NCBI GenBank assembly: GCA_027031765.1
Contig: JALVPN010000144.1
Location: 1-41,373 of the forward strand
Source: Promethearchaeota archaeon
GTDB lineage: Archaea > Asgardarchaeota > Thorarchaeia > Thorarchaeales > Thorarchaeaceae
Direction of reading: 5' to 3'
Length of the DNA: 41,373 bases
A program made the position numbers and the translations under genes. Below are positions 2,099 to 10,289 of the stretch, one piece after another. Numbering within the stretch: the first letter of the stretch is position 1; each line of letters starts with the position of its first letter. The notes under the pieces are model-generated. The model made no database searches and was not told where the DNA came from. It was given only the letters and a program-made list of their open reading frames with translations.

Positions 2099-2836
2099 AT
2101 GAGCAGAGCGTTCAGAAAGAGTGATTGCACAGACCAACAAGTAAGTATGAGGTACTGGTCGTACTACAGGAGTGTGACAGATGAGTTGGTAAAGACTGTA
2201 GAGGCACCGCCTGAACTCCACCCACTAATAGAGGAGATAGAAAAGAAATACGAGGAAGTATTCGCATCGCACCTTGAGTTCAGGCCGGAGGAGAGCCGTA
2301 TTCGGCTCCTAGGAAAAGACGTGATGTTCATAGGACTCAGGGCAGTAGCAATCGACCTGAAGGACGAGCTCGACAGAGTCCTGGGAGAACAGGGAAGAAA
2401 CCTCCTAATCTACCGCCTAGGACAGTCGTTTGGCCGCTCTGAGGCGGAACGCTTGATCCCACAGCTCGGCGTTGAGGGACTACCGGCAAGACTTGCTGCA
2501 GGGCCAATCTGGGCGGCATTCTCCGGATTTGTGAGGGTAAGACTACTCCCGGGATCAGTGCTCGAGCCGAATGAGAACTATTTTCTGTTCTACGAACATC
2601 CGAACAACTTCGAGGCACAGCTCTGGAAGGACGAGGGACGCACGAGTCAGGAGCCAGTCTGCTTCTTCAACGCGGGGTACTCGTCAGGCTGGTGCTCAGT
2701 TGCATCGGGGCTGGACCTGGATGCAGAGGAAATCCTATGTGAGGCCAAGGGCGACCCTGTCTGCAGGTTCATAATGTTCCCATCGTCCCGCCGGATGGAA
2801 TACATGGAACGCGTGGACGAATACAGGAACATATAG
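2099..2836 (+). CDS. V4R domain protein (Bet3/TRAPP-like fold) with XylR-N-like region
   Basis: The C-terminal part (about residues 185-228) has the V4R pattern: a glycine-rich GYSSGW segment followed by Cys 188, 199, 214 and 222, ending in the typical CRF. The preceding region (about 55-185) resembles the XylR-N/V4R sensor region. V4R domains are known to share the fold of the TRAPP subunit Bet3 and often bind small hydrophobic ligands or metals. There is no signal peptide or membrane span, so it should be cytosolic. The first ATG is 2099. An in-frame ATG at 2147 is possible, because the first 16 residues are not domain-like. It lies directly upstream of an MglA-like GTPase and three roadblock proteins, which suggests a regulator or scaffold for that GTPase. 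The function itself is inference. Confidence 0.8.
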   Translation: MSRAFRKSDCTDQQVSMRYWSYYRSVTDELVKTVEAPPELHPLIEEIEKKYEEVFASHLEFRPEESRIRLLGKDVMFIGLRAVAIDLKDELDRVLGEQGRNLLIYRLGQSFGRSEAERLIPQLGVEGLPARLAAGPIWAAFSGFVRVRLLPGSVLEPNENYFLFYEHPNNFEAQLWKDEGRTSQEPVCFFNAGYSSGWCSVASGLDLDAEEILCEAKGDPVCRFIMFPSSRRMEYMERVDEYRNI

Positions 2837-3035
2837 AGTAGAGAACAGGAGTGCACGGCATACAGGGGCCTGCACTGGGGTCTCCACTGCGGCTGGCACG
2901 GACATGTGGCTGGGGCAACTGACCTGGCAAGATGTGGTCTGTATTGCATGTGACATGACAACGTCTGTATGTGTCCGCGCACCACGGACGGTGGGTTCAC
3001 TCTGACAACGACAACTAGAAACAGGGGGCGAATAG

Positions 3036-3665
3036 ATGGGAGGAAGAATGAAACCGTACGACTACAAGGTCTACGTGACCGGGCCATTCCAAGCGGGAAA
3101 GACAACTCTCATCCACACTCTCGACCCAGATGCCATATCAATAGAACGTGAGATGCGAGAAGCATATCGTGGTGAGAAGGGGACGACGACCACAGGGTTT
3201 GATCTAGGTCGGGTCGTGTGGGTGAGGAAAGAGGTGCATCATGACGGACTGGTTGTCCCAAAGAAGGAGTTTGAACGCGAAAGGGCCGAGTACGACGGCT
3301 GGACAACCAGAGAGATTGAACTCAGAGGTGTGCCAGGACAACTACACTTCAAGTTTGTCAGAGACACTATGCGGATGAACACCGATGGTGTCCTCATGAT
3401 TGTGGACTCGTCAGACTACGGGATGATTGGTGATGCAAGCGCAATACTGGCAGAAACGATAGCTGCATTCGGCGACATACCTCTGGAAGTGATTGCAAAC
3501 AAGCAGGACCGTAACGATGCCGCTAGTCCAGAAGAGGTCGCGACATGGCTAGGAGTAGAGAAGGCGACCGGTATGTGTGCAAAGGATCACGAGTCGGCCC
3601 GAGAGGCACTGATACGCCTGCTGAAGAAGCTGGAGGGAGCAGGGGAGGAAGGGGGGTCTGCATGA
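3036..3665 (+). CDS. MglA-like Ras-superfamily small GTPase
   Basis: This is a soluble GTP-binding switch protein of about 209 residues. G1 is GPFQAGKT at residues 16-23, a threonine run at 50-53 fits G2, and G3 reads GVPGQ at 98-102, so the usual aspartate is absent, as in bacterial MglA (TVPGQ). G4 is NKQD at 155-158, and G5 may be CAKD at 181-184. An insertion-like charged segment lies between G2 and G3 (about 62-92). Start candidates are ATG 3036 and ATG 3048. The second has GGGAGG four bases upstream, although MKPYDYK fits either. It is followed within 22 bases by the first of three roadblock/LC7 genes, the typical partners (MglB-like) of such GTPases. The target pathway is not visible. 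Confidence 0.87.
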   Translation: MGGRMKPYDYKVYVTGPFQAGKTTLIHTLDPDAISIEREMREAYRGEKGTTTTGFDLGRVVWVRKEVHHDGLVVPKKEFERERAEYDGWTTREIELRGVPGQLHFKFVRDTMRMNTDGVLMIVDSSDYGMIGDASAILAETIAAFGDIPLEVIANKQDRNDAASPEEVATWLGVEKATGMCAKDHESAREALIRLLKKLEGAGEEGGSA

Positions 3666-3687
3666 ATGACCATACAGAGGGCGGTGC

Positions 3688-4149
3688 GTGAGCACATTGC
3701 ATGAGGACACCCACGAAATCCCACCAGTCCGAACAATCGTGTCAAAGCTCAGAGAGTTCACAACAAGGGTGCCGGTGTGGGGCCTGACGGTGTTTACAAT
3801 TGATGGTTATGTGATAGCCCATCATGCCACGACCAACAACATTCCCCAAGGAGTTGAGATGGCCATAAGCAGCATGTCAGCAGGGCTGATTGCGATTGCA
3901 GAAGACTTCATAAGACTTGTAGATGCGAAGAAGCGGTTCAAGGAGATAGTTGTTGACTCGGAGGACACCGATGGAGCCCCTGCATTCTCAGTCATACTGA
4001 GGCATGCAGCGGAAAACGTAATGCTCGCATGTATCTTCCCGAGGACAACGCAACTTGGACTGATCACGTTTGAGATGGACCTGCTCTGTAATGACATTGT
4101 AGAGATTGTAGGGCAGTGGGACCCCAAACTCCACATGATGAAACAGTGA
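3688..4149 (+). CDS. Roadblock/LC7 domain protein 1
   Basis: This 153-residue soluble protein has a single roadblock/LC7 domain at about 13-120: a long N-terminal helix, the strand pattern LTVFTIDGYVIAHH, a central helix rich in Met/Ala/Ser, and a closing strand pair (VMLACIFP and GLITFEMD). The family dimerises and acts on small GTPases as MglB-type GAP or scaffold. The start is GTG at 3688, with GAGG seven bases upstream at 3677-3680. It begins 22 bases after the GTPase stop and is probably co-transcribed with it. It is longer than the two roadblock proteins downstream and differs from them in sequence, so the three are probably not recent duplicates. Confidence 0.85.
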   Translation: MSTLHEDTHEIPPVRTIVSKLREFTTRVPVWGLTVFTIDGYVIAHHATTNNIPQGVEMAISSMSAGLIAIAEDFIRLVDAKKRFKEIVVDSEDTDGAPAFSVILRHAAENVMLACIFPRTTQLGLITFEMDLLCNDIVEIVGQWDPKLHMMKQ

Positions 4150-4169
4150 CGTGAGGAGGCTGAAAACCA

Positions 4170-4601
4170 GTGAGCATGGGTACAAGCGAGAAACTGTCGG
4201 AGGTCATTCGAAGCCTTGTGACAGACTCGTCAGACAAGTTCCATGGCTGCGTAATCACCAACGAAAGGGGACTGATTGTCGCCGCAATGGATGACAACAC
4301 CGTATCCAATGAGAGTTTGGCAGCAATGATGTCATTGCTGTCAGACACGGCACAGCGGATAAACGAGAGCTTGGATCTTGGGACTCCCAAGACAATGGCA
4401 ATCCTCTCTGACGAAAGACGTCTTCTGATGCACGAGTTCAGGGTACAGGGACGTCGGTTCAGGATTGGTGCCATTGTCAGTGGCAGGGTGACATCCCGAA
4501 GACTGAAACGGATACGGGGGCTGTTCAGCCGTGGCGGTATTGAGCATACATTGGAAGATGCAGCCAAACGCGTTGTCAGTGTGTTGGAAGAGAGGGCATG
4601 A
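4170..4601 (+). CDS. Roadblock/LC7 domain protein 2
   Basis: This 143-residue protein has the roadblock order: an N-terminal helix, the strand pair GCVITNERGLIVAA, a helix with alternating Ala/Met/Ser (residues 50-68), then a strand pair ending in FRIGAIV. A basic segment follows (residues 108-125, several Arg/Lys), which the family does not usually have and which may contact an acidic partner or membrane. The start is GTG 4170, with GAGGAGG at 4153-4159 ten bases upstream. ATG 4176 is the alternative. It sits 20 bases after the first roadblock gene in the same direction. Domain assignment is by pattern, and the partner is inferred from context. Confidence 0.8.
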   Translation: MSMGTSEKLSEVIRSLVTDSSDKFHGCVITNERGLIVAAMDDNTVSNESLAAMMSLLSDTAQRINESLDLGTPKTMAILSDERRLLMHEFRVQGRRFRIGAIVSGRVTSRRLKRIRGLFSRGGIEHTLEDAAKRVVSVLEERA

Positions 4602-4641
4602 CCGTACCTACGAATGATGTGAAACAAGGTGAGGGAAGGTA

Positions 4642-5004
4642 ATGCCAAGGACTGAAGAGCTGAAGCAAGTATTGAGTGAACTACTGAAGAAGTGCGACCT
4701 TGATGGTGTGGCGATTGTTACGAACCGGGGGCAACCAGTGGCCGCGATACTACCGCATGACGCACCGGAGAAGGCTGTTTCTGCAATGGCAGCATCAATC
4801 CTGTCAATAGGACAGCGGGTAGGATATGAGCTGGGTGCGGGCGAACCGAGGCATATCATTGTTGACGGCACAGAGAACACAGTAGTACTCGTCGGGTTTG
4901 ACTCGATGGTACTTGTGGGACGGGCACCATCAACCGCTGAGATTGGGCTCATTCGGTTCGAGGCAGGCAAGACGGTCAGGAAACTACAGGAACTCCTCTC
5001 ATGA
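4642..5004 (+). CDS. Roadblock/LC7 domain protein 3 (MglB-like)
   Basis: This is the shortest (120 residues) and most typical roadblock/LC7 protein of the three. It has an initial helix, then DGVAIVTNRGQPVAAILP, then the helix carrying AMAASILSIGQRV, a conserved glycine before the third strand, and a final GLIRFEAG strand and helix. This matches the MglB-type consensus closely. ATG 4642 follows GAGGGAAGG at 4631-4639. It closes the five-gene group that starts with the V4R protein. The next feature is on the opposite strand. The likely role is a GTPase-regulating or scaffolding dimer in the cytosol, possibly as a heteromer with the other two roadblock proteins (inference). Confidence 0.87.
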   Translation: MPRTEELKQVLSELLKKCDLDGVAIVTNRGQPVAAILPHDAPEKAVSAMAASILSIGQRVGYELGAGEPRHIIVDGTENTVVLVGFDSMVLVGRAPSTAEIGLIRFEAGKTVRKLQELLS

Positions 5005-8726: not shown

Positions 8727-10289
8727 GTGGCCTTGGCTGGACGGAGCGTGCGCGGACTCTTGTCCGTAGTGTTGCTCACCTCCATGTTGTGCCTGCTGTT
8801 CACAAGTAGACCAGTCCTCTGTCAGAGTGGGCACACATGGACTGTCGGAATAGACAGGAACTATGCACCACACGAGTACTGGGTCGATGGGGAGGCGAAG
8901 GGGTTCAATGTTGATATCATCAATGCGCTGGCAGTGCGGATGGGTGTGGAAGTGAGCTGGGTACCACTCAGCTGGCACGACGCGTTGGAGGCCCTCAGCA
9001 ACGGTACTGTCGACAGCCTCTGCATGGCGCGCTCAGCCGAACGCGACACTTACTTTGACTTCAGCCGACCAATACTGAACCTGTCACTCCGGGTGTTTGT
9101 GAGACCCGAGGTGAGCGGAATCGTCACCCTTGAAGACCTGGCAGGACACACGGTGGCTGTGGAGGAGGGCGACATTGCAGACTCGATAGTCACAGAACGG
9201 TGCCCGGAGGCAAACATCGTACGTGTCAGGACTCAAGATGAGGCCATTCAGCTGGTAGCTAACGGTGAGGTCCTAGCAGCCTTTTGCAACGAGTATGCAG
9301 GGTACTATGCAGTGATGATGAATGACATTGACAATGTGAAGGTTATCGGCGAGCCGGTGGACATAGAACCGCGGGTCATAGCGGTCAGGGAGGGGGACAG
9401 AGAGCTGCTGCAGGCGATAGACGCCGCACTCGAGGAACTCTTTGAGTCGGGAGAGTATGAAACGATATTCGCCCGATGGTTCGGTACCGGACTGGATGGA
9501 AACCGGGAACTGGCACAAATCCGGACGCTGGTAGTAGCTGTGGCGGGGATTGTTGGAGCGGGCGTCCTGCTTGTGCTCACTTGGAACTGGTCGCTACGCA
9601 GGAGGGTCGACAGGGCGACGAGGAGAATCCTGCTCCTGACCGATATCTTTCGACACGATCTCAGGAACATCTGCCAGATAGGACTCTATAGTCTGGAGCT
9701 CCTTGAACTGAAGACGGATCTGAGAGATGGGGAGGCGGCCGACTTTGTCGAGAATGCGAAGAATGCGTTCAGAAGACTTGACAACCTGATAAACGACCTC
9801 TCGCTCCTAGAAACACTTGCATCAGAACGGCCGCCAAAGGGCGAGGTTGATGTGAAAGGGGCACTGTACTATGCGGCCGAACGGCTCAGGGCCGAGCAGG
9901 TAGGTGTAGATGTCCAGCTGATATTTGAGAGCGATAGGACACAAGTGATACACTCGTGCGAGCTGTTGCCCGAGGCCCTCTTCCGGGTGATGCGATACGT
10001 AGCTGTGAAGACGCAACCAGATGGGGGCAGATACATCATCGTGAGGGTAAGGAGGACAAGGTTGCACACCGAAATCTCCATTGGGAGCCCGGAACTGGTA
10101 GTACCACCAGACATGAGAGAGAACAGGTTCTTGAGGTATGCAGGGGACTCTCACGCTGAGGTCGGGCTGGACCTGTCTGTTGCCCATAGTATAGTGTCCC
10201 AGTGCGGCAAGGGGACAATAAGGGTGGAGATTAGTCCGACCAGTGATGAAGGCACAGGAGCAACATTCGTAATCACGCTGGGCCAGTAG
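8727..10289 (+). CDS. Sensor protein: extracellular solute-binding domain plus degenerate histidine-kinase region
   Basis: Residues 1-32 form a signal peptide or anchor. About 35-255 is a solute-binding protein family 3 domain: it starts with a VGIDRNYAPHEY strand, continues with KGFNVDIINALA, and has the D-x-F-DFSRP signature. A membrane helix follows (about 268-290). The cytoplasmic part has an H-box-like FRHDLRN with His 310 and a helical hairpin to about 365. The C-terminal 140 residues resemble the HATPase fold only loosely: the N-box asparagines are replaced (ALFRVMRYVAVK), no DxGxG is visible, and a GLDLSVAHSIV helix stands in the G2 position. It thus looks like an amino-acid or small-solute sensor whose ATP-binding site is altered. 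The GTG start has a GGGGTGA site seven bases upstream. No receiver gene is adjacent. Confidence 0.8.
   Translation: MALAGRSVRGLLSVVLLTSMLCLLFTSRPVLCQSGHTWTVGIDRNYAPHEYWVDGEAKGFNVDIINALAVRMGVEVSWVPLSWHDALEALSNGTVDSLCMARSAERDTYFDFSRPILNLSLRVFVRPEVSGIVTLEDLAGHTVAVEEGDIADSIVTERCPEANIVRVRTQDEAIQLVANGEVLAAFCNEYAGYYAVMMNDIDNVKVIGEPVDIEPRVIAVREGDRELLQAIDAALEELFESGEYETIFARWFGTGLDGNRELAQIRTLVVAVAGIVGAGVLLVLTWNWSLRRRVDRATRRILLLTDIFRHDLRNICQIGLYSLELLELKTDLRDGEAADFVENAKNAFRRLDNLINDLSLLETLASERPPKGEVDVKGALYYAAERLRAEQVGVDVQLIFESDRTQVIHSCELLPEALFRVMRYVAVKTQPDGGRYIIVRVRRTRLHTEISIGSPELVVPPDMRENRFLRYAGDSHAEVGLDLSVAHSIVSQCGKGTIRVEISPTSDEGTGATFVITLGQ

Follow-up and report, generated by a model that had tools for sequence, protein, structure and literature searches.

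The window analysed here is a stretch of 41,373 nucleotides (GenBank assembly GCA_027031765.1, contig JALVPN010000144.1, positions 1 to 41,373) that opens contig C144 of a 2.95-Mb Thorarchaeota metagenome-assembled genome, 95% complete. We verified in it five open reading frames on the + strand, separated by 199, 22, 20 and 40 bases, which encode in turn a V4R protein, a small GTPase and three roadblock proteins, R1, R2 and R3 (Table 1). The cluster is present and correctly placed in the preliminary description of this DNA, which had also proposed that three of the genes encode roadblock proteins. R3 is recognized as such by Pfam. Singly, R1 (0.016) and R2 (0.0074) fall short of the curated Pfam cut-off, and their families match R3 and R0, a further roadblock carried by relatives, at 98% and 97%, respectively, in profile-profile comparisons with controls near zero, so the count of three roadblocks stands. 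The genome has ~14-17 roadblock genes, and the chance of three consecutive ones after a given gene is ~2e-7. The V4R protein matches two Pfam profiles, V4R (3.6e-8) and XylR_N (1.2e-7). Its first 29 listed residues are probably untranslated, because its relatives begin with MVKTVEAPPE, which corresponds to a TTG start at 2186 in the window. All five genes are under purifying selection, with nonsynonymous differences (pN) of 0.12-0.43 versus synonymous differences (pS) of 0.68-0.83 against the orthologs of genome G004.

Table 1. Features of the cluster, in window coordinates. Residues of the V4R protein are numbered from the ATG at 2099.
Feature	Position	Strand	Basis or remark
V4R protein	2099..2836	+	Pfam V4R and XylR_N; best PDB matches MopR, PoxR, CapR
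Predicted zinc site Cys188, Glu211, Cys214, Cys222	2660..2764	+	codons from 2660, 2729, 2738 and 2762
Gap between V4R and GTPase, lacking R0	2837..3035		relatives have roadblock R0 there
MglA-like small GTPase, 209 aa	3036..3665	+	Pfam Arf 2.9e-9; Ras-superfamily G domain in AlphaFold2 model
GTPase G1/P-loop GPFQAGKT	3081..3104	+	motif reading
GTPase G3 GVPGQ, Gly for Asp, catalytic Gln102 kept	3327..3341	+	motif reading
Roadblock R1, acidic family, invariant Asp39-Gly40 hairpin (codons 3802-3807)	3688..4149	+	profile-profile 98%
Roadblock R2, basic family, isoelectric point ~9.5 here, hairpin Arg33 (codon 4266)	4170..4601	+	profile-profile 97%
Roadblock R3	4642..5004	+	Pfam Robl_LC7 9.9e-9; groups with relatives' R3 at 100/97

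Close relatives carry the genes in the order V4R-R0-GTPase-R1-R2-R3, with short spacers between them. We scanned 228 genomes from the phylum and retrieved neighbourhoods, which defined a core module of R0, GTPase, R1, R2 and sometimes R3. The order R0-GTPase-R1(-R2) was found in at least seven Asgard families (f1, f9, f20, f21, f22, f25 and f2), the R0 of the f2 modules being encoded on the other strand. We counted ~31 module loci, some of them truncated at contig ends; the gene order is not an assembly artefact because one of its carriers, G120, is a single-contig genome. The preliminary description had suggested that the locus is a module of a GTPase whose regulators, the roadblocks, are built in, and had proposed a gene-order search in other archaea, and the recurrence of the arrangement in these families bears that reading out. 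The R0 of this genome lies on contig C109 (L068:3333-3707), adjoining a PAS/helix-turn-helix gene, and groups with Thorarchaeal R0s with a support of 94/98. No match to an R0 remnant was found in the gap at 2837-3035 of the window. The family c23, located upstream of R0 in family f9, was considered as roadblock/longin-like and set aside as weak (57% to R1 by profile-profile comparison). On the same contig, ~50 kb downstream of the window cluster, a further group of genes encodes an Arf-like GTPase and two or more roadblocks (L067:12774-15135; C144, ~54-56 kb). We also note that the record L015 (WJMJ01000050.1, titled Lokiarchaeota RBin_111) appears to be contig C16 of G018, from the window's own Thorarchaeota family, and is probably mislabelled.

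The GTPase has the motifs GPFQAGKT (G1), TTTTGFDLG (G2, with Thr and no Arg), GVPGQ (G3) and NKQD (G4). GTPases of MglA groups 2-5 have a G3 motif of GTPGQ without Asp and a Thr replacing the Arg finger (Wuichet and Sogaard-Andersen, PMC4316618). The window GTPase agrees with this definition, as do its orthologs, which keep GVPGQ and TTTTGFDLG, so the MglA-like label it was first given holds and, judged by its motifs, the protein is predicted to lack an intrinsic Arg finger. The DxxGQ signature of Rup, Ras and Arf proteins is not found in G3, where Gly takes the place of Asp in the window GTPase and its close relatives. The best sequence matches among solved structures are Asgard and eukaryotic Arf-like proteins, and a fold search with the AlphaFold2 model scored Arf, Rab, Ras and MglA about equally. 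Coupling to roadblock genes is a feature of MglA and not of Rup (PMC4316618), and roadblocks neighbour 36 of the 44 GTPase homologs, as expected of the MglA type. All 36 of these homologs retain the G3 Gln, which is replaced by Met, Pro, Ser or Lys in seven of the eight homologs without roadblock neighbours; in the tree of homologs the Gln was lost about three times independently. A Gln that is kept, with one exception, only where roadblocks adjoin the GTPase fits the prediction of a roadblock regulator acting through this residue, and by this association the roadblocks appear tied to GTP hydrolysis. Five roadblock-less paralogs that have lost the Gln (L061, L062, L063, L064 and L172) adjoin genes for methylmalonyl-CoA mutase and an uncharacterised protein of 460-500 aa. 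An intact GTPase-R1-R2-R3 cluster sits at the same methylmalonyl-CoA mutase locus in L054/L055.

The roadblocks of the module have diverged in charge and in their hairpins. The median isoelectric point across orthologs is 4.5 for R1 and 9.8 for R2, an opposition that would fit a heterodimer of the two, or an R2 that faces a membrane. The Asp-Gly of the first hairpin of R1 is invariant (28/28) and resembles a pair described for the roadblocks that accompany GTPases of MglA groups 2-5 (PMC4316618). The first hairpin of R2 carries an Arg in 20 of 21 sequences, which we speculate could be a candidate for a residue supplied in trans. Two-part control of GTPase-activating protein (GAP) activity by roadblocks has a precedent in MglB/RomY (PMC9481161). 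The MglA-type motifs and the several roadblocks, as in this bipartite control, would also be compatible with a polarity or motility switch like Myxococcus MglA/MglB, in which the roadblocks place the GTPase at a cell pole or protrusion. Yet no pilus, archaellum or polarity gene is named beside the modules examined, and we regard such a role as very improbable. Two further loci (L152:3829-5331 and L153:2533-3969) encode fusion proteins (478-500 aa) in which an R2-like roadblock follows a long N-terminal region that is apparently a coiled coil.

The V4R protein belongs to the sensor type of the Bet3 superfamily, whose fold also serves in vesicle tethers of eukaryotes. The profile of its family matches MopR, PoxR and CapR in the PDB (1e-22 to 1e-16), and TRAPPC3/Bet3 is absent from those matches. 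Its identity with the Thorarchaeal TRAPPC3 was ruled out, the TRAPPC3 ortholog being an unlinked gene on contig C41 of this genome. All of 18 Asgard V4Rs have Cys188, Glu211, Cys214 and Cys222, at the spacing seen in MopR and PoxR; the zinc ligands of DmpR are likewise three Cys and one Glu, with identical Cys spacing (PMC7264223). Both Pfam domains of XylR_N/V4R sensors and their predicted zinc ligands are represented. The His and Trp that position phenol in those sensors (PMC7264223) are replaced in the V4R by Ala139 and His167, and its ligand should thus differ from phenol.

Distribution and position link this sensor-like protein to the module. Among 25 genomes of the family, V4R is present in six of the nine that have the module versus none of the 16 that lack it (p=5e-4, not corrected for kinship), and in a wider sample the module is found in all nine genomes of the family that have V4R. 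In three different genomes, a spacer of 13-17 bases separates V4R from the R0 gene downstream. Co-occurrence and position thus sustain the suggestion that the module includes a Bet3-fold partner. Unlinked V4R copies adjoin PAS/histidine kinases in this genome (contig C223) and in G220, G221 and G115. The first three of these cases, and the many module loci without V4R (in G005, G008 and G018), would be expected if V4R were an independent sensor gene, adjacent to the roadblock-GTPase module through shared ancestry only. Within the family, however, V4R never occurs without the module, and the short spacing to R0, the second predicted Bet3-fold family that occupies the V4R slot (c5, below) and the pairing of distant V4Rs with a roadblock or a longin also make so loose a relationship unlikely. 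The C223 copy, a second V4R of the same family (L146:5993-6787), lies 55 bases from an opposite-strand PAS/GAF histidine kinase.

The family c5, of ~155 residues, is found at 14 modules, upstream of the GTPase and adjoining R0. Sequence searches of Pfam, NCBIfam and the PDB returned no convincing match for it, and its profile-profile comparison with V4R gave only P=0.013, so that its identity was informed by the predicted fold alone. We modelled one member with AlphaFold2 from a two-row alignment (predicted local distance difference test, pLDDT, 68; predicted template modelling score, pTM, 0.70), and obtained a topology of helices followed by strand-strand-helix-strand-strand. With few exceptions, the 50 best PDB matches to the model in Foldseek were subunits of the TRAPPC3/Bet3 type, H-NOX domains or YslB (probability 0.89-1.0, E 0.002-0.03). 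We take the evidence for a predicted Bet3 fold in c5 as suggestive to strong but not conclusive. Across whole genomes, 16 of the 18 strong c5 matches adjoin module roadblocks, a figure that describes specificity and not a chance level, c5 having first been found by adjacency. Counting V4R and c5 together, a gene of the Bet3 superfamily, recognized or predicted, lies in or near the slot at ~20 of the ~31 modules. At one locus (L192, genome G039) the GTPase is followed by an alternating series of roadblock, c5, roadblock and c5.

The TRAPP core consists of Bet3-family subunits and longins and acts as an exchange factor for Rab1/Rab11. The Bet3 fold and the roadblock/longin fold of the module are the same superfamilies, and a TRAPP-like exchange factor, in which a Bet3-fold protein and roadblock dimers load the GTPase with GTP on a membrane for remodelling or trafficking, would also accommodate the TRAPPC3/Bet3 chains matched by the c5 model and a basic R2 facing the membrane. 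Distant V4Rs of other Asgard families, moreover, directly adjoin a Folliculin-like longin at eight loci (L131-L138), with the Folliculin Pfam profile matched in four of the eight aligned longins (best 6e-7), and in G124 a distant V4R is paired directly with a roadblock. The V4R-longin pairs combine a Bet3 fold with a longin, as TRAPP does. But the V4R of the module is of the MopR/PoxR sensor type and distinct from the unlinked TRAPPC3 ortholog, the Rab substrates of TRAPP have the G3 Asp that the module GTPase lacks, and no coat, SNARE or other trafficking gene is named at the modules examined, where the neighbours are often signalling genes. We consider a TRAPP-like exchange factor quite unlikely. 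PAS/histidine kinases and winged-helix genes often neighbour both the modules and the unlinked V4Rs; signalling fits better than trafficking because of this company and the sensor-like V4R. The membrane-trafficking tone of the preliminary description is therefore not retained, and a trafficking role of the module is not supported. Histidine-kinase linkage was itself dropped as a defining feature, its enrichment being only mild. The nearest sensor-like gene of the window (8727-10289) encodes an extracellular solute-binding domain and has no Pfam kinase match. Genes for a CopA-type ATPase and a PadR-TRASH regulator separate it from R3, which lies 3.7 kb upstream, and the C-terminal region of its product resembles a degenerate histidine kinase.

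The gene content and order of the module, its co-occurrence with V4R, the Gln-roadblock link and the conservation of the zinc ligands are computed. From them we infer the contacts, subunit pairing, ligand, direction of regulation and output of what is, somewhat more probably than not, a ligand-gated, roadblock-regulated GTPase signalling module, which would work like MglA/MglB or an archaeal conservon and is assembled from TRAPP-type parts. The MglA-like GTPase would be a switch with no Arg finger of its own. The roadblocks, R0/R3 together with the acidic R1 and the basic R2 (these two possibly paired as a heterodimer), would form a platform that positions the catalytic Gln of the GTPase and thereby governs hydrolysis or exchange. 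A protein of the Bet3 superfamily, the predicted zinc-binding V4R here and c5, with its predicted Bet3 fold, in many relatives, would bind a small hydrophobic molecule and alter the activity of the platform. The output would probably be two-component or transcriptional signalling. Several observations weigh against this model. R0 is absent from the window cluster, where 199 bases separate V4R from the next gene; V4R is missing from the module genomes G005, G008 and G018, the first of which has c5 in the slot; and confidence in the c5 model is modest (pLDDT 68), with no Foldseek E value below 0.001. The Gln-loss count comes partly from contig ends, which affect the exception and some of the seven losses, and the enrichment of histidine kinases near modules is mild (4 versus 1.0 expected, p=0.02).

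More tentatively, the ligand-gated signalling module could be an operon-encoded forerunner of TRAPP, in which a Bet3-superfamily sensor sits on roadblock heterodimers and switches, depending on its hydrophobic ligand, their exchange or GAP activity toward a dedicated GTPase of the MglA-like kind. Ligand-gated signalling complexes would in that case be the ancestors of eukaryotic TRAPP, or a parallel to it. GTPase genes of MK-D1 are generally not in operons with GAPs or guanine nucleotide exchange factors (GEFs), which makes pairing them hard (Tran et al. 2024, PMC10933270). The module, which we did not find described in the literature searched, provides a matched and conserved set, in which a single GTPase is accompanied by three or four roadblocks and a Bet3-fold partner, in the archaea most closely related to eukaryotes. 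Two questions become testable in vitro with it. One is whether roadblocks were the GAP or GEF of small GTPases in this group of archaea; the other is whether proteins of the Bet3 fold started as ligand sensors for roadblock-GTPase complexes, an exaptation scenario that Podar et al. 2008 (PMC2253512) brought up. The recurrence of the module across Asgard lineages makes the origin of such switch-and-regulator sets directly testable as well.

Among known systems, MglA/MglB of MglA groups 2-5 (PMC4316618) share with the module an Asp-less G3 ending in GQ, a Thr for the Arg finger, adjacent roadblock genes and the Asp-Gly pair conserved in R1. Unlike them, the module has three or four divergent roadblocks per GTPase and a Bet3-fold gene, and its GTPase has GVPGQ instead of GTPGQ in G3 and an insert between switch I and G3 (~38 residues between the motifs). 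The actinobacterial conservons (PMC13343842) are made of four fixed genes, the kinase-like CvnA, the roadblock CvnB, CvnC and the GTPase CvnD; they too place a small GTPase and a roadblock in a signalling operon, often with sensor kinases nearby. The module differs from conservons in its several roadblocks, its V4R or c5 gene and the lack of a kinase as a fixed member, and no CvnC-type gene was recognised at the modules examined. With the TRAPP core it has in common a Bet3-superfamily protein, roadblock/longin-superfamily proteins and a small GTPase; the module has roadblocks and not longins, an MglA-like and not a Rab GTPase, and a V4R nearer to bacterial sensors. The Thorarchaeal proteins treated by Tran et al. 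2024 (PMC10933270), among them TRAPPC3, roadblocks and Rabs, come from the same superfamilies and the same archaeal group and are the products of different genes. The V4R protein, finally, resembles in sequence the sensor domain of MopR, PoxR and DmpR (XylR_N plus V4R) throughout that domain, including the three Cys and one Glu of the zinc site, but it stands alone, without an AAA+ or DNA-binding domain.

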